Below are positions 2,111-9,353 of a stretch of 11,034 nt of DNA, in pieces (position 1 is the stretch's first letter; every line of letters starts with the position of its first letter). This DNA is from Bacteroidales bacterium (lineage in GTDB: Bacteria > Bacteroidota > Bacteroidia > Bacteroidales > SM23-62). Under the pieces are notes generated by a model that searched no databases, was not told where the DNA came from, and worked only from the letters and a program-made list of their open reading frames with translations. The stretch is taken from positions 1 through 11,034 of the forward strand of contig JADHVS010000146.1 of the NCBI GenBank assembly GCA_016783865.1, given 5' to 3'. The position numbers were made by a program, and so were the translations under genes.

Positions 2111-2185
2111 GGTGGTAGTAGCTCAGCTGGTTAGAGCACTGGATTGTGGTTCCAGGGGTCGTGGGTTCGAATCCCATCTTCCACC
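2111..2185 (+). tRNA. trnH: tRNA-His (anticodon GTG)
   Basis: A complete cloverleaf can be drawn. An extra G-1 at 2111 faces discriminator C2185, the identity element of histidine tRNAs. Acceptor stem 2112-2118 pairs with 2178-2184, D stem GCTC/GAGC is 2121-2124/2134-2137, and anticodon stem CTGGA/TCCAG is 2139-2143/2151-2155. The anticodon loop is TTGTGGT with GTG at 2146-2148. The T stem is 2161-2165/2173-2177 with loop TTCGAAT. CCA is not encoded. One acceptor pair (5-68) is a T-T mismatch. The 3' end is duplicated at 4048-4064, suggesting that this gene served as an integration site. Confidence 0.95.
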
Positions 2186-2202
2186 CAACACTCAAAAACC
2201 GG
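2169..2202 (+). repeat. Proximal attachment-site-like repeat (attL candidate) in the tRNA-His 3' end
   Basis: A 34-bp stretch beginning in the T loop and running 17 bp past the tRNA recurs at 4048-4081 with 30 of 34 identities. This includes an uninterrupted 15-bp core (2178-2192, CTTCCACCCAACACT) and the final AAAAACCGG. Reuse of a tRNA 3' end as a direct repeat is the hallmark of tRNA-targeted site-specific integration. Confidence 0.6.
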
Positions 2203-2224
2203 TATTGAAAAATCAAAACCGGTT
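2194..2224 (-). terminator. Intrinsic terminator of the PIN gene
   Basis: On the minus strand AACCGGT pairs with ACCGGTT (7 bp). A T-T mismatch and then TTGA/TCAA (4 bp) close a TTTT loop, and the second arm runs into a T tract (complement of the A run at 2194-2198). The hairpin begins within the PIN stop codon (2224-2226). It may also slow readthrough from the convergent tRNA. Confidence 0.6.
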
Positions 2225-2725
2225 CATCTCTTATATGAACGGATCAGCTTGTTAATTTCATCTAACGGTAAACTCCTATTTATTAATTTCAATTTCTCTA
2301 ATAACTCATTTGCCTTACTTTTTGTTATCAATTCCATTTTTACAAGAGTTGATACAACCCAAATACTCCCATGCACTTCAATGTTGAGTTCTTCAGCTTC
2401 CTTACGTAATTTTTTGTCGCCTGTCAACAAAGGACATTGAAGTTCAAACGATTTCCATAAGACCGATTTATCCGTAATCCCCTTGAAATTTCTGGATGTT
2501 TTAAACTCCTGTATTAACTCAATTTCATCGGGTGAAAATCGAAAAACTGTTACTTTATTTGCCCTTATAAATAAATCTATATTCTGCTTTTTGATCTGAT
2601 TCTTTTATCTCTTTGATGACAAATGCGGTCGTGCAAATTTCAAAGTCTAAACTGAAAAACTCTGGTAATGCACCGATACCAATGATATCGAAAAAAACAT
2701 TTGTATCTGTTATAATCAGCTTCAT
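2224..2725 (-). pseudogene. PIN-domain ribonuclease (VapC-like toxin), frameshifted
   Basis: The start ATG (2725-2723) overlaps the stop of the Xre-ImmA gene as ATGA, showing translational coupling. The frame begins MKLIITDTNVFFDIIG and stops early at 2555. The downstream half (ending 2224) continues in the +1 frame with a perfect PIN C-terminus: ITDKSVLW, then LLTGDKKLRKEAEEL. Removing one A from the A5 run (T run 2588-2592 on the plus strand) joins them as ...KESDQKQNIDLFIRANKVTVF..., giving a continuous 166-residue protein. PIN acidic residues are visible: D7 in TDTN, an E in the IKEIKE segment, D in ITDK, and D in TGDK. PIN proteins are Mg-dependent ribonucleases, often toxins. As read, the product would lack the last two acidic positions and be inactive. 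A sequencing error in the homopolymer, or programmed slippage, cannot be excluded. Confidence 0.8.
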
Positions 2726-3789
2726 ATCAATTGATGCATAGATTTGCGAAACTCCCACACACTTTCTCCTGAATAGTATGCAGCTTCATTCACAGAAATT
2801 AACTCTTTCCCTAAAGCAAAATAGATCAGCCTTTTAAACCGTATTGGTTTTTCTTGACTTAAAAATCTTCCTGGTTCGTTATTGTGAAGTCCTCTTGAAC
2901 GATAATTGATGTTTAAGTTCCTAAATACATACTCAGAAATAATCCCTAATCGCAATGCCCGTTGGAATATTGCAGAAATTGAAATTCCCCATCTTTCTTT
3001 TAACATCACCAGCTCATTTTCGAAAAAGTGAAATCGATCATAGTGTAATTCCTTGTGAGCCATTTCCTCTGGATACAATACTGCACTCGCAAAAACATGG
3101 CATAGTTTTTCTGCTTGCTTATGACCTATTTCCTCAGGAATGCTTAATGAGTGGTGTGCCAACTCGTGTAATGCAGTGAATCGTTTCCTGGTCTTGTTCT
3201 CACCGAAAATACTACCATTTAGAATAATAACCTTCTTACTTCCCACCTCCACTGCCAATCCATCAAAACTCTTTGATGCATCAATCTCGACAATTAAATA
3301 CCCTTTATCCTCAAGCATTGCGAGTACATCAGGAATGGGATCATAACCCAAATCCCAATCTTTGCGTAAATGTCTTGCAGCTTCTTCTGCATCATCTTCA
3401 TTTTGCACCTCTGATGTATAATTGAAATATTGCAAATCCTCTTGCAGATTAAGCAATTGTTCCAATTCAAGATATCTTTCTAGTATGTTTTTGGATTTTT
3501 CTTCAATCACAGTTTTTTCTGTCTCTGATACTCTTGAAGAATGTTTTCGGTAGTCAGGATTTTTAAGTTCAACTGATACGGTTGGTTCAGCATAAAAATA
3601 ATCAACAGGTACTTCCAACACACTTGACAGCATAATTAATAAATCACTATCTGGCTTCATCTTACCCTGCTCATATTTATTGAGAGACTGTTTGGTAACC
3701 ACATTCCCTAATGCATCAGCAAGTTTTTGAAGTGATAAACCCGCCATTTTACGGGCGGATGATAATCTTATGCCAAAAATGTTTTCCAT
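2722..3789 (-). CDS. Xre-family regulator fused to ImmA/IrrE-type metallopeptidase (COG2856-like)
   Basis: This 355-residue protein has an N-terminal Cro/C1-type helix-turn-helix (about 5-62; LSLQKLADALG then TKQSLNKYEQGK) and a linker with a coiled-coil-like stretch (about 86-120). A Peptidase_M78 domain (about 150-260) contains the zinc motif H208-E209-L-A-H212 with third ligand probably E227 (QAEKLCHVFASAVLYP). A further C-terminal region of about 100 residues may sense a ligand or bind the partner. ImmA/IrrE proteins cleave repressors, and Xre-M78 fusions are typical of phage and toxin-antitoxin-like loci. Here the gene precedes and overlaps a PIN ribonuclease gene, so it probably acts as its antitoxin or regulator. 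The ATG at 3789 fits the promoter directly upstream. A palindrome around that promoter suggests autoregulation. The gene appears intact although its partner is broken. Confidence 0.85.
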   Translation of the reverse strand: MENIFGIRLSSARKMAGLSLQKLADALGNVVTKQSLNKYEQGKMKPDSDLLIMLSSVLEVPVDYFYAEPTVSVELKNPDYRKHSSRVSETEKTVIEEKSKNILERYLELEQLLNLQEDLQYFNYTSEVQNEDDAEEAARHLRKDWDLGYDPIPDVLAMLEDKGYLIVEIDASKSFDGLAVEVGSKKVIILNGSIFGENKTRKRFTALHELAHHSLSIPEEIGHKQAEKLCHVFASAVLYPEEMAHKELHYDRFHFFENELVMLKERWGISISAIFQRALRLGIISEYVFRNLNINYRSRGLHNNEPGRFLSQEKPIRFKRLIYFALGKELISVNEAAYYSGESVWEFRKSMHQLI

Positions 3790-3807
3790 ATGTTTGGTTG
3801 TAGGTTT

Positions 3808-3843
3808 GTTGACAATTATACGAAATAAATATCAAATGTCAAC
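3808..3843 (-). promoter_or_regulatory. Promoter with flanking palindromic operator for the Xre-ImmA/PIN unit
   Basis: The minus strand shows TTGACA (3842-3837), 16 nt, then TATAAT (3820-3815), an almost ideal housekeeping promoter. It can also be read in Bacteroidota terms as TTG, 19 nt, TATAATTG. A perfect 7-bp inverted repeat brackets it: GTTGACA on the plus strand at 3808-3814 and TGTCAAC at 3837-3843, with 22 bp between. One arm covers the -35 and the other lies just downstream of the -10, as expected of operators bound by the encoded HTH dimer. Confidence 0.6.
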
Positions 3844-4047
3844 CATTAAGATGAATAATATTGTTAGATGCAGATAATTTCTTAGAGTGTGATGTGGAAT
3901 AAATAAATTAAGATTAATAGTTAATGATAATATTCGAGATGATAATCCCTTATATTAACTGAATCCCATACTACGATTGACAATAGTAACAATCCATTCC
4001 TGGGAGATTAGTTTATTGAGGTTGATTTTTCACCATCTCACCCGATT
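3844..4047. other. Gene-free AT-rich distal part of the islet
   Basis: I see no open frame of useful length, RNA gene or strong hairpin here. The content is AT-rich with short ATTAA/AATAAT motifs. It is bounded by the Xre-ImmA promoter on one side and the distal tRNA-end repeat on the other. It could hold degraded remnants of a lost recombination gene, but nothing recognisable survives. Confidence 0.5.
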
Positions 4048-4081
4048 GAATCTCCCCTTCCACCCAACACTAAAAAACCGG
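4048..4081 (+). repeat. Distal attachment-site-like repeat (attR candidate), degenerate tRNA-His 3' end
   Basis: Matches 2169-2202 at 30 of 34 positions. The 15-bp core at 4057-4071 is identical; differences lie at 4053, 4055, 4056 and 4072. The T-arm portion is degenerate and no upstream tRNA body exists here, so it is a tRNA 3' fragment, not a second tRNA gene. Confidence 0.6.
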
Positions 4082-4110
4082 AGTGCTGGCGCAGCCAGCG
4101 TCCAGTTTTT
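4072..4110 (+). terminator. Hairpin terminator, probably the original tRNA-His terminator
   Basis: The stem GCTGGC (4085-4090)/GCCAGC (4094-4099) has a GCA loop. It is extended by GGA/TCC with small bulges, and by an A run (4072-4077) that can pair with GTTTTT (4105-4110). The T run gives intrinsic-terminator character on the plus strand. It stands directly after the distal tRNA-end repeat, where the tRNA terminator would lie if the islet were removed. Confidence 0.5.
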
Positions 4111-4213
4111 GGAGTTGAAGTACTCCACTTAGGTATCGCGACCGAAGGGAGCAATCCCGGTTTTTGGAGTTGAAGTACTCCACTCAGGGATCGCGACCAA
4201 AGGGAGCAATCCC
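4105..4213. repeat. Two tandem 54-bp units of a dispersed structured repeat
   Basis: Units 4105-4158 and 4160-4213 differ at only three positions. Each contains a GGAGT...ACTCC stem-loop followed by a segment running from AGGGATCGCGACC (AGGTATCGCGACC in unit 1) to AGGGAGCAATCCC, whose ends can pair (GGGAT/ATCCC). The second half recurs at 4850-4878. Such short GC-rich palindromic elements resemble REP-like intergenic repeats. No coding function is supported. Confidence 0.8.
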
Positions 4214-4226
4214 ATGCGCTTCATGA

Positions 4227-4463
4227 TCAGGCCGTTTTCAGCTTTTCTGATATCCAGAATTTTATGATCGATTGACGGGTAACACCAAGTTTTGCAGCTT
4301 CCTGATCCAACATATTGATCATCCATTCTGGAATATCAACACTGACACGCCTTGTTTCCATCCCGTGACGCCTGGCTGTTTCGAAATCCAGAAATCCTGT
4401 TATGTCTTTCTCCTGCTCGAACAGCTCATCAAACTTTTGTGCTGTAATAGATTTCTTTTTCAT
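4227..4463 (-). CDS. brnA: BrnA-type ribbon-helix-helix antitoxin
   Basis: This 78-residue protein overlaps the brnT 3' end by 35 nt and starts inside it. The N-terminal part (1-37; FDELFEQEKDITGFLDFETA) matches the toxin-embracing region of BrnA antitoxins. A ribbon-helix-helix fold follows (about 38-76; RRVSVDIPEWMINMLDQEA, then GVTRQSIIKFWISEKL). BrnA neutralises BrnT by direct binding, and the complex represses its own promoter through the ribbon-helix-helix domain. The toxin-first gene order is normal for brnTA. The gene ends 13 nt from a structured repeat. Assignment rests on sequence texture and pairing with a clear BrnT. Confidence 0.85.
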   Translation of the reverse strand: MKKKSITAQKFDELFEQEKDITGFLDFETARRHGMETRRVSVDIPEWMINMLDQEAAKLGVTRQSIIKFWISEKLKTA

Positions 4464-4698
4464 TATTCCTTGATTTTCTAACAGAGATTATTCTTATCAT
4501 ATCGTTTCGTAATGTAAATATGGCCGACCATATATCATCGTTCCATTGAGCAATTAAAAGTTTACGTGGCTCTCCAATGGTTCGTGCATTAATCTCAACC
4601 CTTCTGTAATCAAGCCAAAGGAATTGAGCCTCAACAAAATCAATTCCATGTTTCTGTTTATTAGAAGCACTTTTGTTCTGATCGAACTCAAAGACCAT
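4429..4698 (-). CDS. brnT: BrnT-type ribonuclease toxin
   Basis: This 89-residue protein fits the BrnT/PF04365 family: FEFDQNKSASNKQKHGIDF at the N-terminus (family pattern F-D-x-x-K-x-x-x-N-x-x-K-H-G-I-x-F), then a central beta region (RKLLIAQWNDDIWSAIFTLR). The basic C-terminal motif is IRIISVRKSRNNEKEIY, where the conserved Arg residues (about R69, R74, R77) lie. BrnT is a RelE-fold ribosome-independent ribonuclease that inhibits translation. The ATG at 4698 follows a clear -7 box and operator-like repeat. It is the first gene of a two-gene operon with brnA. The open frame is intact and of normal length, so the pair may be functional. It lies between copies of a dispersed repeat. Confidence 0.9.
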   Translation of the reverse strand: MVFEFDQNKSASNKQKHGIDFVEAQFLWLDYRRVEINARTIGEPRKLLIAQWNDDIWSAIFTLRNDMIRIISVRKSRNNEKEIYYSTKV

Positions 4699-4849: not shown

Positions 4850-4878
4850 AGGGATCGCGACCAAAGGGAGCAATCCCT
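4850..4878. repeat. Third copy (half unit) of the dispersed structured repeat
   Basis: The first 28 bases are identical to 4186-4213. The ends AGGGAT and ATCCCT are complementary and can form a hairpin. Together with 4105-4213 this copy brackets the brnTA operon in direct orientation. Confidence 0.75.
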
Positions 4879-4954: not shown

Positions 4955-6136
4955 ATGAAACGATCTCTCCTAATCATCGCCACAGCACTACTTAACCTCT
5001 TGGACATCAGCGCACAGGCCCCTCCCATGGAATGGCATAATTGCTATGGCACTGACAACGGGGAACATGTTCATGAAGGAATGCAGACCAGCGATTTGGG
5101 GTATATCGGAATTGGTCAAACAGATGAGGGCGAAAGTGAAGCCTCTGACCTTCTTGTGATCAAGATCAATGAAGACGGCACCCACGAGTGGCAGAAGATT
5201 ATTGGAACGCCTGGTAAAACTGAGGTTGGCCTTTGTGTCAATGAAGTGGATGATGGATATCTTATTGGAGGGGGATTGTTTGAATCGGACCGACAGCAAA
5301 GATACCTGGCCAAACTGGATGTAAACGGGGAGTTCATCTGGTAAAAGTTTTATGAGGGTTCCGGATCCGATGCCATCAGAAGTATTGATATAACCACAGA
5401 TGGATATATTGTCACTACTGGTTATAAAGGTGCTTCCCAGGACGGATTTATTTTCATTTCCGATGACTCAAAGGGTTTTATTATGAAAACCGATCGGGAT
5501 GGAAATATGATCTGGGATAAGGATATTACTCCTCCACAGGGAACGAAGATCAAAGTTGATCATGATTCAAAAGGCTTTGTTATCGTTTCCACCATCTGGG
5601 TAGATGGAGCCGATGGCGGGGAAGCCCACGAGGATGTTTTGTTAATGAAATTCGACCAGAACGGCGAAATGTACTGGAGCCAGCTTTATGGGGGTGAGAA
5701 AAGTGAACATTGCTATGATTTTGACCTGACTACTGATGGAGGCTACATATGCGGAGGCCACTCAAGGTCATATGGAATTAATTGGGATTTCTACCTGTTA
5801 AAGATCGGTGCGGATGGTGAAAAGGAATGGCACAAAACATTTAGCCAGCCACGTGGATACGATCCTCAGTGGATACATGACGAAGCATATGGCGTAAGGC
5901 AAACACCCGACGGAGGATTTGTCATAGTAGGAGGTACCGGGGATGAGTTCCCTTATTCAGAATCCGGCAGTCCATTTGGTCCTTCTGACATATGGCAGGT
6001 CTACCTGGTGAAAACAGATTCCGCAGGAAATAAACTCTGGGAAGGGGTGTATGGCAGTACTACGGATAATGATGCAGGAGAATATCTTGGACTAACTAAA
6101 GATGGGGGCTTTATCATTTTTACGGATGCAGATTGA
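4955..6136 (+). pseudogene. Secreted repeat protein (beta-propeller-like, Bacteroidota), nonsense-interrupted and 3'-truncated
   Basis: One reading frame of 394 codons is interrupted by TAA at codon 130 (5342-5344); the frame continues in phase on both sides. A signal peptide (1-20, ending ISA-Q) precedes about seven repeats of roughly 50 residues. Each has a G-x-x-x-W turn (W27, W79, W129, W187, W241, W292, W362) and a T-x-D-G-G-[YF] strand. This layout resembles delta-60-type or propeller repeats of large exported, often type IX-secreted, proteins. In other repeats the residue after Trp is H, Q, D, S, H or E, so the TAA probably replaced CAA or GAA. The 3' end stops mid-repeat (DGGFIIFTDAD), exactly where a 110-bp repeat begins and supplies TGA, so the remaining repeats and any sorting domain are missing. 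The function of the intact protein is unknown. Confidence 0.75.
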
Positions 6137-6241
6137 CTCTCCTCGCAGCAAGCTGCGAGGAATCATCGATCCTTTATATAAATTTTTAATTGCGCTCGCT
6201 AACCCCGCAGCAAACTACGGGGAATGCGCTCGCAGGATTCA
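6132..6241. repeat. 110-bp structured dispersed repeat, copy 1
   Basis: Nearly identical to 6895-7002; apart from a 2-nt gap, one base differs. It contains a perfect hairpin, CCTCGCAGC-AA-GCTGCGAGG (6141-6160). A second, imperfect hairpin, CCCCGCAGC... with ...CTACGGGG (6202-6221), is flanked by direct TGCGCTCGC copies. The element's first bases provide the TGA that ends the propeller-like gene. It has no coding capacity and resembles a REP/MITE-type palindromic element. Confidence 0.88.
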
Positions 6242-6394: not shown

Positions 6395-6769
6395 CTATTT
6401 ACCTATTAGTTTGAATTTAAACCCGGTGATTGCTTCGTAGGTTTCACCGGCCTCCAAAAGCTCTTCGTCATCATCTTCATAATACCAGTTAACAATGCAC
6501 TCGTTAGGAGCTTTCTTGAGCGGCTCTAACTGTTTGAAGAAATCGAGAATACATTTCGAGGAGCTCGTATTAAAATGCTCAAGATCAATGTTAATAATAG
6601 TTTTTTCTTTTGGATCTTTTACGTATTCGCTCGCCCATTCTATCAAGGGCATGAAAAACTCCTTGGCATTTTCAGGATGAGCCCTGCCTTTCATTTCCAC
6701 GAATCCCTGATCGGCATCAGATCTGATTGATGGTGTTTTGGGCGTTCCTGGTATGTCTAACTTTCCCAT
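6395..6769 (-). CDS. siaC: SiaC-family regulatory phosphoprotein (DUF1987)
   Basis: This 124-residue protein covers a complete DUF1987/SiaC domain: TPKTPSI near the N-terminus, GRAHPENAKEFFMPLIEW, IDLEHFNTSSSK, then WYYEDDDEELLEAGETYE. In Pseudomonas, SiaC is phosphorylated on a threonine of the NTSS motif by kinase SiaB, dephosphorylated by SiaA, and when unphosphorylated activates the diguanylate cyclase SiaD. Here that residue is Thr68. I chose the ATG at 6769 over the in-frame ATG at 6790 because the predicted -7 box (6795-6788) overlaps the upstream codon, so a transcript would begin after it. The shorter start also drops an atypical MLYNLCI extension. No SiaA, SiaB or cyclase gene is in view. 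It is monocistronic, with its own promoter and terminator, and sits between two direct copies of the 110-bp repeat. Confidence 0.85.
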   Translation of the reverse strand: MGKLDIPGTPKTPSIRSDADQGFVEMKGRAHPENAKEFFMPLIEWASEYVKDPKEKTIINIDLEHFNTSSSKCILDFFKQLEPLKKAPNECIVNWYYEDDDEELLEAGETYEAITGFKFKLIGK

Positions 6770-6787
6770 TATACACAAATTATATAA

Positions 6788-6795
6788 CAAATATA
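6788..6795 (-). promoter_or_regulatory. -7 box of the siaC-like gene
   Basis: TATATTTG on the minus strand matches TAnnTTTG exactly and lies 18 nt before the chosen ATG. The -33 is only a T-rich stretch (6820-6817, TTTT, 21-nt spacing). Its position excludes the upstream ATG as start. Confidence 0.55.
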
Positions 6796-6894: not shown

Positions 6895-7002
6895 ATTGAC
6901 TCTCCTCGCAGCAAGCTGCGAGGAATCATCGATCCTATATAAATTTTTAATTGCGCTCGCTAACCCCGCAGCAAGCTACGGGGAATGCGCTCGCAGGATT
7001 CA
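6895..7002. repeat. 110-bp structured dispersed repeat, copy 2 (108 bp)
   Basis: Same orientation as copy 1, 2 nt shorter near 6936, with one substitution (CAAGCTA for CAAACTA). The hairpin at 6904-6923 is perfect. Read on the minus strand, its end encodes the last residues (ES)CERIPRSLLRG and the TAG stop of the GH127 gene, so the element lies inside that reading frame. Confidence 0.88.
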
Positions 7003-9353
7003 AGTACAATTGTCCTGATCTCAAACAGCGGTCCGGCAATATTGAAAGGGTGGGCTTCAAACTTAACTGTGACCTTTGATTTACCGGTGGTTAATCCAAC
7101 AGGAATTTCATACACAACATCCACAAATTCCCCATCCATTATGCCCACAATATCCTCTGTTACAAGTAATTCGCCATCTATCGATATGTCGAATGATTTT
7201 GACCCGGTAAATCCACCCCAATATTCAACGGCTAATCCCATGGGTTGATCCTTCAATACCTTCATATCATAAGAAAACCATCCCCGCCTGGCCTGCCTGT
7301 AGGTTCTGTGCCTGAATAATACTTTAATTGTGTTTTCTCCCTTCAGCTGATGTGCCAGTTCACCAATACTGTCACCCGGAAAGATAAAATCCAGGCTCTG
7401 GTCAATTATTTTTTGCTTTTTCTCCAATTTTTCCCGTTTTGCGGCCAGGAAATCCGCCCAGGACTCTTCATTATACATGTCCCAATAAACAGAATACCTC
7501 CGCTCATGTGTTGAATAGAATGGTTGCAAAACAAAATCGCGGGGATTACCAACTCCGGCGGTCCTGAAAACATTTGAACCCGGTTCAGGATTGGTCCAGG
7601 CAACGGGATCCCGTTGCTCTGTCATAATAACAGGCACAAAATTATCCTCCCGGGCATGGGGATCATCTTCTTCTCCCAGGTCACCAGCAAGCACCAGCGG
7701 ACCATACATTACAGCGATCCTGTTAGTATCATCAGGCATTGTTTCAAGACGAAGCGAAAAGGGAATTTTTACCTCCACCCTGTCTCCCGTCTTCCATTCT
7801 CCTGCAACAGCAACAAAACTGCCGGGCTTCCGTTTCACTGGATGCTGCTTACCATTTACGACTATTTCCATTCCATTCTCTGCCCAGTATGGATACCTGA
7901 GCTGAAGAACCAGTTTTACAGGTTTTTCACTATCAAATTCAATGGTTGTACCCTGCTCCTGCGGAAAATTCGTTAACTGTCTGACGACCAGTCCCTTTTC
8001 GGCCCATTCAACCTCCGAAGCAATAAACTGGCTCACAAATAATTCTTTATCATTATGGAAGAAGATGTTTCTTCCATATTTTGAATGATTTTCCATGCCT
8101 GTACCCACACAACACGTGAACCAATAAGGATCCTGGTATGTCTTAAATCCTCCCATCTCAAGCGACAGGTTGTAGATCACACGGCCGTCTCCCGGGTGCT
8201 GTGATGAAAGAATATGATTAAAAAGCGCTCTTTCATAGAAATCAGCGACTTCGGCAGAGGCTTCCCATTGAAACATATGGCGCGATAGCTTCAACATATT
8301 ATAGACATTACACGATTCAGTCGTTTCATCACTCAACCTGTTCCGAAGTTTATCCGGCTCTCCAAAGTATTCATGGTTTCCATGACCCCCGGTAACATAT
8401 GAATGATGATGAACCACCCTATCCCAGAAATATTCAGCCGTTTTCCTGTCATTTTCGTCACCGGTCAGTTCATACCTCCGGGCCAGGCCAATCAACTTTG
8501 GGATCTGGGTATTTCCATGGATCCCCGGCAGAATATCTTCTCCTTGGGATAAGGGTTCCAGTACATCATTATGATGGAATACACGCGATAGCTCCAGGTA
8601 TTTCCCGTCACCGGTATGAGCATACAGGTCGGCCAGTACTTCATTCATTCCACCGTGCTCACAATCCAGCATTTCCTGGATCTCCTCATCTGTTAAGGGA
8701 TTTACAATGGTCCCTACCCAATCGGCAAATTTCTTTTCTATTTCCAGCGCTTTATGATTTCCACATAAGGTATAAGCGTCACGCAAGCCAGCCATGACCT
8801 TATGCATGGTATAATACGGAGCCCATATCCCATTCAGGTCGAATAGTTTTGGCCGTATATCTCCCTTCGCTATCTCTTCCTCAAAAACTCTTTTCCCATC
8901 AGGAAAAGCACCTATATACCCATCCCCATTCGCATCCTGGCAAATCTTCAACTCATCAACAATGTAATTTACCCGGTCAAGGAAAGTCTGATCGCCAGTA
9001 GTTTGATACATCAAAGCGCAACCACTTAAATGATGGCCGAGGCTATGGCCTGCCAATGTTTCATTTTCCCATCCCAGGTAATGTTCGGCTCTTGGTTCCA
9101 AACCGGCCTCGCTCCTGAATCCGGCCAGCAAGCGGTCTGGTTCATAATTAAGTAATGACTTAACATTCAGCTCTGTAGCATGTTTGAACGGTCCATCTAA
9201 CAATTCTACCTCGGTAAGTTCAAAGGGCAATACACGAAATTCAATCACCTCCGGACCACCCGTTTGGATCCCTGGCGGCTCAGAATTGTTACAGGAAATC
9301 AATAAAACTCCAATAAGAAATTGTATCATGAAGGGTCTGGTTAAAAATTTCAT
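6960..9353 (-). CDS. GH127-family lipoprotein (probable beta-L-arabinofuranosidase) with C-terminal DUF4986-like domain
   Basis: This 797-residue lipoprotein has signal and lipobox LLIS-C21. The GH127 (DUF1680/PF07944) catalytic barrel spans about 42-560. Its signatures match the cysteine-dependent, zinc-binding active site known from HypBA1: TTE346-S-C348 for the Glu and first Cys ligand, and W-F-T-C414-C415-V-G-T-G for the paired cysteines, the first being the likely nucleophile. The acid/base Glu is probably in GGHGNHEYFGE (E328 or E332). A beta-rich C-terminal module (about 670-785; MGLAVEYWGG, FDISIDGELL) fits DUF4986. Such enzymes release L-arabinofuranose from plant or algal glycans; some relatives act on other sugars, so the substrate is uncertain. 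It is the last gene after the MFS permease, separated by a structured spacer. The final 12 or so residues come from an inserted repeat and are not native. Confidence 0.88.
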   Translation of the reverse strand: MKFLTRPFMIQFLIGVLLISCNNSEPPGIQTGGPEVIEFRVLPFELTEVELLDGPFKHATELNVKSLLNYEPDRLLAGFRSEAGLEPRAEHYLGWENETLAGHSLGHHLSGCALMYQTTGDQTFLDRVNYIVDELKICQDANGDGYIGAFPDGKRVFEEEIAKGDIRPKLFDLNGIWAPYYTMHKVMAGLRDAYTLCGNHKALEIEKKFADWVGTIVNPLTDEEIQEMLDCEHGGMNEVLADLYAHTGDGKYLELSRVFHHNDVLEPLSQGEDILPGIHGNTQIPKLIGLARRYELTGDENDRKTAEYFWDRVVHHHSYVTGGHGNHEYFGEPDKLRNRLSDETTESCNVYNMLKLSRHMFQWEASAEVADFYERALFNHILSSQHPGDGRVIYNLSLEMGGFKTYQDPYWFTCCVGTGMENHSKYGRNIFFHNDKELFVSQFIASEVEWAEKGLVVRQLTNFPQEQGTTIEFDSEKPVKLVLQLRYPYWAENGMEIVVNGKQHPVKRKPGSFVAVAGEWKTGDRVEVKIPFSLRLETMPDDTNRIAVMYGPLVLAGDLGEEDDPHAREDNFVPVIMTEQRDPVAWTNPEPGSNVFRTAGVGNPRDFVLQPFYSTHERRYSVYWDMYNEESWADFLAAKREKLEKKQKIIDQSLDFIFPGDSIGELAHQLKGENTIKVLFRHRTYRQARRGWFSYDMKVLKDQPMGLAVEYWGGFTGSKSFDISIDGELLVTEDIVGIMDGEFVDVVYEIPVGLTTGKSKVTVKFEAHPFNIAGPLFEIRTIVLESCERIPRSLLRG

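Follow-up and report, generated by a model that had tools for sequence, protein, structure and literature searches.

A toxin-antitoxin islet between two tRNA-His tail copies in a Bacteroidales contig, and its possible kinship with integrase-free tRNA-tail duplications

The 3' ends of tRNA genes are common targets of tyrosine recombinases, whose insertion is accompanied by direct repeats of 8-60 bp and leaves the target gene whole, and cis-mobilizable elements (CIMEs) retain attachment (att) sites without an integrase (PMC5704250). SegB, a GIY-YIG endonuclease of phage T6, makes its cuts within tRNA genes, with a preference for the motif RAWTSGAAC (23 of 83 mapped sites), and the tandem amplification of tRNA-Tyr together with segB depends on it (PMC13096335, published 2026). 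Among toxin-antitoxin (TA) systems, PIN-like partners have been reported for the ImmA antitoxin node in NetFlax (PMC10440598). The locus described here lies on contig JADHVS010000146.1 of a Bacteroidales bacterium (GCA_016783865.1), of which a stretch of 11,034 nt was analyzed (the window; all coordinates are window positions). In it, a tRNA-His gene and a second copy of its tail enclose an Xre-ImmA/PIN gene pair, and this arrangement was compared with tRNA-tail duplications in other genomes of the class.

The tRNA-His(GTG) gene is intact by ARAGORN and by the Rfam tRNA model, and the 34-nt direct repeat with a 15-nt core that an earlier note on this DNA had reported was confirmed exactly (coordinates in Table 1). 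The two copies are identical at 30 of 34 positions, are spaced 1879 nt start to start and enclose 1.85 kb of A+T-rich DNA. The core, CTTCCACCCAACACT, occurs in the window only at 2178 and 4057, even with two mismatches allowed; 0.03 occurrences were expected, and two copies were obtained in 0 of 200 shuffles. At 34.3%, the G+C content of 2203-4047 lies below the 39.2-45.9% measured in 110 overlapping, equally long segments from the rest of the window. No integrase was detected among the 10 window open reading frames (ORFs) scanned (three pieces inside the repeats, seven outside), and no integrase or transfer gene in the three minus-strand gene pieces scanned inside the repeats, overlapping plus-strand ORFs being outside that scan. 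It is very likely that the enclosed DNA lies inserted between the two tail copies. The overall picture in the earlier note, an integrase-free insert with a TA or defence-type pair between tRNA-His and a tail copy, with the better tRNA terminator on the far side, is supported.

The terminators needed some revision. At 124 of the 135 loci in relatives, a terminator-like hairpin has its start no more than 50 nt from the end of tRNA-His (control: 33 matches at one random position per locus with more than 3 kb downstream, a bare count given without a denominator). In the window the canonical tRNA-type terminator had been described as lying just outside the distal repeat; it in fact begins within it. 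The claim that a terminator is found only at the far side held in part, in that the better plus-strand terminator is there, but a proximal hairpin is also present, so that the difference is one of degree. On the minus strand the proximal hairpin serves as terminator of the xre-pin operon, and under loose detection criteria it also counts as a terminator on the plus strand. A better tRNA terminator at the far end is as expected if DNA was inserted. A further hairpin (4002-4056) overlaps the distal repeat copy from the left. At 4102-4211 a 55-nt tandem repeat (93%) has the 3' arm of the tRNA terminator at its start and a hairpin resembling repetitive extragenic palindromic (REP) sequences at its end; the spot adjoining the terminator has therefore itself been duplicated.

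Tail duplications were sought downstream of tRNA-His across 395 genomes of the class, 330 of which gave a match. About 150 places were listed and 137 loci were read for up to 20 kb downstream (left out were rows with shorter alignments, G192 and the first-listed loci of G056 and G072), giving 135 usable relatives, 89 loci with at least 19 kb read, and a survey that islands longer than 20 kb would escape. Repeats were scored on the tRNA part only, with a cut-off of 18; an earlier opposite-strand control that included terminator arms had reached 21, supposedly because terminators are palindromic, and the control restricted to the tRNA part was used instead. Scores of at least 18 were found at 8 of 135 loci (L095, L096, L106, L108, L163, L183, L185 and L214) and at 0 of 136 on the opposite strand, where the best was 14. 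These repeats have their start in the T-loop, 17-21 nt short of the tRNA end, and extend 0-20 nt beyond the gene; in the window the corresponding values are 18 and 16 nt. Copies are spaced 77-1842 bp apart, and no tail repeat was found at 2-20 kb in the 135 loci, a size pattern not expected of a hotspot for integrase islands as large as 20 kb; related islets with an integrase at the same tRNA, as the earlier note had suggested, were not encountered in this size range. Its suggestion of other cargo was borne out: L106 and L183 each carry one 86-aa GIY-YIG ORF between the copies, and L163 carries a 448-aa AAA_14/DUF4143 ATPase between tRNA-His and an exact 18-nt tail copy, at a spacing of 1842 bp that is close to the window's. 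Relatives of this ATPase at E <= 1e-40 among 15 genomes were limited to one more in its own genome and one in G214. The remaining five duplications have 77-155 bp between copies, some with a recurring hairpin. Among borderline loci, the repeats of L259 and L171 belong to other tRNAs, L208 looks like chance, and L173 (+48, score 14), left uncounted, may be a decayed small case.

The GIY-YIG protein of L183 was used to search 30 genomes, the eight with tail duplications included, and matched in 15 (its own counted), often at even spacing, with four copies 322 bp apart in G216. Twenty GIY-YIG stretches from 14 genomes were chosen from the 48 listed matches before their tRNA context was known. ARAGORN found a tRNA in 17 of the 20, of eleven kinds in all, and 15 have a tRNA on the same strand no more than 250 bp from the GIY-YIG array; 13 of these 15 have a partial copy of the same tRNA on the other side that scores above all 50 shuffles (L270 and L275 narrowly). 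The shuffles used in this test, as in the 5'-remnant and hairpin-kinship tests below, preserve base counts only. In the clearest cases (L263, L269, L271, L272, L275, L278 and L280) the intact tRNA comes first, followed by a terminator, the GIY-YIG gene and a tRNA copy that one or two palindromes interrupt; mostly a further terminator comes after this copy. L276 and L279 have their intact tRNA at the far side, and in L273, L274 and L281 the pattern is not clear. Tandem GIY-YIG arrays with a period of 320-480 bp (L262, L263, L265 and L266, up to eight copies in L266) mostly adjoin tRNAs and alternate with tRNA-tail copies. A GIY-YIG gene between a tRNA and its partial copy was found in 10 genomes in total (nine and that of L183), which we take to belong to the Bacteroidota. 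No report of a GIY-YIG/tRNA-tail duplication in Bacteroidota chromosomes was found among the literature matches listed, subscription journals being mostly outside their scope, and the portion of the GIY-YIG superfamily article consulted contains no mention of Bacteroid- or Flavobact- (PMC1564403).

These loci resemble the SegB system in that a GIY-YIG enzyme stands beside tRNA genes, tRNA genes would be cut at a presumed T-loop motif, and tRNA and endonuclease form tandem units (PMC13096335). GTTCSAWTY, the reverse complement of RAWTSGAAC, is by our reading the consensus T-loop. SegB, however, works in phage genomes by homologous recombination, whereas the loci here are in genomes of a bacterial class; their far copies consist of tail fragments that hairpins often interrupt, and TA genes take the place of a nuclease in the window islet. 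Two motif matches occur in the window, one of them at the tRNA-His T-loop, compared with 1.25 expected by chance, so that only the position of the T-loop match is informative.

The explanation we rate highest, and hold with slightly less than even confidence, is a Bacteroidota-wide, integrase-free duplication of tRNA tails by break and repair at the T-loop, with the TA pair as a passenger. A break would be made in the tRNA T-loop, most plausibly by a small free-standing GIY-YIG endonuclease resembling SegB, and repair would leave the tail and the 5' arm of the terminator on both sides of new DNA; one copy would preserve an intact tRNA, and the far copy would remain as a fragment that a hairpin often breaks or caps. 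What is inserted could be the GIY-YIG gene, a hairpin-bearing segment of some 100 bp or, here, an operon resembling RosmerTA, whose genes may have been captured during repair with captured DNA or by replacing an earlier GIY-YIG cargo. We lean, by a little, towards placing the window's duplication in the integrase-free kind that starts at the T-loop in relatives, a step from class to islet that we infer. That a GIY-YIG enzyme made the duplication at this very locus is a tentative and rather doubtful proposal. Its general form, in which Bacteroidota GIY-YIG enzymes cut tRNA T-loops and repair duplicates the tail and so places small cargo, be it a nuclease, an AAA/DUF4143 ATPase or a TA pair, behind tRNA genes without integrase or transposase, hairpin-only copies being non-autonomous leftovers, is more speculative still.

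A GIY-YIG origin is kept tentative here because the window has no such gene, its cargo is reversed, the hairpin kinship is weak and there is no 5' remnant of the tRNA. These and several other observations weigh against placing the islet with the duplications in relatives. The L183 protein gave no tblastn match in the window at E 10, and no GIY-YIG gene was seen in six of the eight tRNA-His relatives with tail duplications; a same-strand tRNA within 250 bp was absent from five of the 20 GIY-YIG stretches. The cargo genes of the window face the tRNA, and the GIY-YIG genes of L106 and L183 and the ATPase gene of L163 have the opposite orientation. The measure restricted to the tRNA part gives the window a score of 13, within the range seen on the opposite strand, and the score rises to 22 when 20 nt past the tRNA are counted, so that its repeat is strong only by running past the gene; the first 9 nt are only partly identical, the exact core begins 9 nt before the tRNA end, and less of the tRNA is covered than in relatives. 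Many GIY-YIG cases keep a remnant of the tRNA 5' part, whereas at the distal copy of the window none was detected (the score was reached in 409 and 315 of 500 shuffles), and there is no support for reading this copy as a second tRNA-His in decay. A strong hairpin precedes the distal tail in the window (z -3.05) and in the GIY-YIG cases L106 (-3.58) and L183 (-3.62), but z is weaker than -1 in four of the eight relatives. The window hairpin fits the recurrent REP-like hairpins weakly, with 7, 32, 63 and 221 of 1000 shuffles reaching the scores, and its derivation as a copy of those at L185, L108 or L263 was not borne out. A perfect T-loop motif is present in four of eight duplicated tRNA-His genes and in 20 of 129 others (Fisher p 0.03), a mild excess that is at most suggestive. 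Finally, no tRNA was found beside the module in any of its 14 relatives, within the up to 1.5 kb read on each side.

The main rival, judged unlikely as a whole, is that a tyrosine recombinase inserted an island at the tRNA-His 3' end and that deletions then left the TA pair between attL and attR, as a decayed integrase island or CIME. The window shares with remnants of CIMEs, integrative and mobilizable elements and integrative and conjugative elements (ICEs) the cargo between direct repeats that include a tRNA end, with no integrase (PMC5704250). The common targeting of tRNA 3' ends by tyrosine recombinases and the existence of CIMEs without an integrase fit this origin, as do a repeat that includes the tRNA 3' end, a distal copy somewhat decayed (30/34) and the presence of integrases in all eight genomes with tail duplications. 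In only one of the eight genomes, however, does PF00589 occur on the tRNA-His contig less than 20 kb from that gene (G147, 14 kb; 22 kb in G135), some contigs being short; the window ORFs scanned gave no integrase, the tRNA-His loci gave neither a tail repeat at 2-20 kb (larger islands would escape) nor a related integrase element, and the sizes and breakpoints in relatives differ. A homing-like origin by break and repair is favoured over a lost integrase, and also over the satellite-like unit, mobilised in trans by the recombinase of a helper phage or ICE, that the earlier note had proposed. Minimal cargo, well-kept repeats and defence-type genes would suit such a satellite. Neither of the two genes recognised between the repeats is an integrase, helper-responsive or packaging gene, and no helper or packaging feature appeared among the ORFs scanned; among the best 20 of 52 phage records, DNA matches to the window are confined to the tRNA stretch; viral contigs with an att-like pattern of 24 fixed bases numbered 0, and no close protein relative was confirmed in viral contigs. 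Records with a relative of the regulator comprise 193 plasmid and 24 phage records, all less than 60% identical. With these searches negative and tail duplications of 2-20 kb lacking in the loci read, nothing beyond small size and repeats speaks for the satellite, which we consider very improbable.

Replication slippage may instead have duplicated the tRNA tail with its terminator, the TA pair being inserted later and independently by illegitimate recombination. The 55-nt tandem repeat shows that the spot duplicates, and in five of the eight relatives no more than 77-155 bp separate the copies. Slippage does not account, however, for GIY-YIG genes enclosed by the copies or for the consistent start in the T-loop, and we consider this course of events improbable, if less so than the satellite.

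Table 1. Coordinates of features at the tRNA-His locus (window positions).
Feature	Position	Strand	Basis or remark
tRNA-His (anticodon GTG), intact	2112..2186	+	ARAGORN; Rfam 64.4 bits
T-loop of tRNA-His, GTTCGAATC	2165..2173	-	reverse complement fits SegB motif RAWTSGAAC
Proximal repeat copy: last 18 nt of tRNA and 16 nt downstream	2169..2202	+	
Hairpin between tRNA and PIN gene	2197..2224		T-run good on minus strand, poor on plus
PIN-type toxin gene, split	2224..2725	-	5' piece 2725-2555, 3' piece ending 2224, different frames
Xre-ImmA regulator, RmrA-like antitoxin, 355 aa	2722..3789	-	Pfam, PADLOC
Putative promoter/operator, inverted repeat GTTGACA...TGTCAAC	3808..3843	-	present in L032, L033, L034, L036
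Hairpin abutting distal tail copy, in place of T-arm	4002..4056	+	fold; 60-nt segment z -3.05
Distal repeat copy, tail only	4048..4081	+	tRNA 5' remnant test negative
Canonical tRNA-type terminator	4073..4110	+	5' arm = last 9 nt of repeat

The tRNA-His gene of the window has, by our reading, a U-U mismatch in the acceptor stem, and the printed relatives seem to have one or two there too. The larger cargo gene matches HTH_3 (3.6e-12) and Peptidase_M78 (1.4e-5) in Pfam and RmrA in PADLOC (1.4e-46), and the start of the PIN gene overlaps the xre stop. Of the "PIN nuclease gene" in the earlier note, a PIN-type gene was found, but only as a broken reading frame, from real decay or a sequencing error; the unit here may thus be an antitoxin relic only, unless the break is a sequencing error. 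The "own promoter" of that note likewise corresponds to an upstream element, but this is the palindrome GTTGACA...TGTCAAC, conserved upstream of xre in all four relatives inspected, which we take to be a promoter/operator of the Bacteroidota type rather than the E. coli type. Through this palindrome Xre-ImmA would repress its own operon, and it would restrain the PIN RNase, whose gene is probably translationally coupled to xre by the overlap. Upon a trigger, the peptidase part would relieve repression or restraint, as suggested for Rosmer-type systems (PMC10440598). Likeness to RosmerTA consists in an Xre and ImmA antitoxin matching PADLOC RmrA with an adjacent toxin partner; the window toxin, however, is PIN/DUF3368-like and broken, its two pieces have no PADLOC match, and the toxin of relative L033 matches PDC-S70 (2.4e-9) and not RmrT. 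The intact L033 toxin was modelled with a mean pLDDT of 87.7, and its matches in the PDB (Foldseek) include PIN-domain proteins, VapC toxins and HARP RNases. The predicted fold would be shared with VapC-type PIN toxins and HARP-type PIN RNases, but identity is 11-21% among the 50 Foldseek matches listed, and the partner is Xre-ImmA rather than VapB.

The Xre-ImmA regulator family is common (1791 homologs) and patchy, being present in 14 of the 395 genomes at E <= 1e-60, and a PIN-like partner adjoins 13 of the 14 module relatives, the 14th being cut by a contig end; the partner is intact in L032-L034. A common, patchy family with a conserved PIN-like partner marks the cargo as an ordinary, mobile TA module. 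Relatives of the module away from tRNAs and without flanking repeats, which the earlier note had named as evidence against its own proposal, were largely what was found: none of the 14 has a tRNA in the stretch read, so that a preference of the module itself for tRNAs was rejected, and 12 of the 13 long enough for comparison have no direct repeat longer than 12 nt between their outer 990-nt flanks. In the 13th, L042, the module lies between two exact copies of a 42-nt direct repeat (948-989 and 3577-3618), which looks REP-like and is not a tRNA tail. From these relatives we conclude no more than that the module has other ways of travelling as well. DNA similarity of the window to relatives extends to 3843-3850 in three genomes (G231, G248 and G101), short of the distal repeat.

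For comparison of occupied and empty sites, close relatives were searched with the upstream peroxiredoxin, a 446-aa ORF that is presumably a sugar transporter, and whole-window DNA as probes. No genome close to the window was found among the 395 genomes, nor in narrower groups of 64 and 245. Peroxiredoxin matches were at most 48% identical and DNA outside tRNA-His at most 71% identical over single genes, so that no searched genome was close enough for an occupied or empty site to be read.

Just beyond the distal repeat, at 4227-4698, lies a second TA pair, BrnA/BrnT, flanked by identical 27-bp hairpin repeats (4187-4213 and 4851-4877). Further along, a SiaC-family gene (6395-6790) is placed between two palindrome-containing direct repeats, each about 110 bp long (6132-6241 and 6895-7002, 93-99%), and the right one overlaps the end of a 797-aa ORF at 6960-9353. 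Together with the L042 repeat, these repeats hint that dispersed palindromic repeats often flank small modules here. A secreted-type ORF at 4955-6136 contains one in-frame stop at 5342-5344 which, with the split PIN gene, hints at gene decay or imperfect sequence.

Genes lodged at tRNA loci are usually attributed to an integrase. Should some such islets instead be the work of small nucleases cutting at the T-loop, as proposed here, island finders based on integrases would misread or miss them, and defence genes would have a further way to settle at safe sites. The GIY-YIG-tRNA arrays offer a direct test, with one enzyme of 86 residues, a short DNA target and a visible product, the tail duplication.

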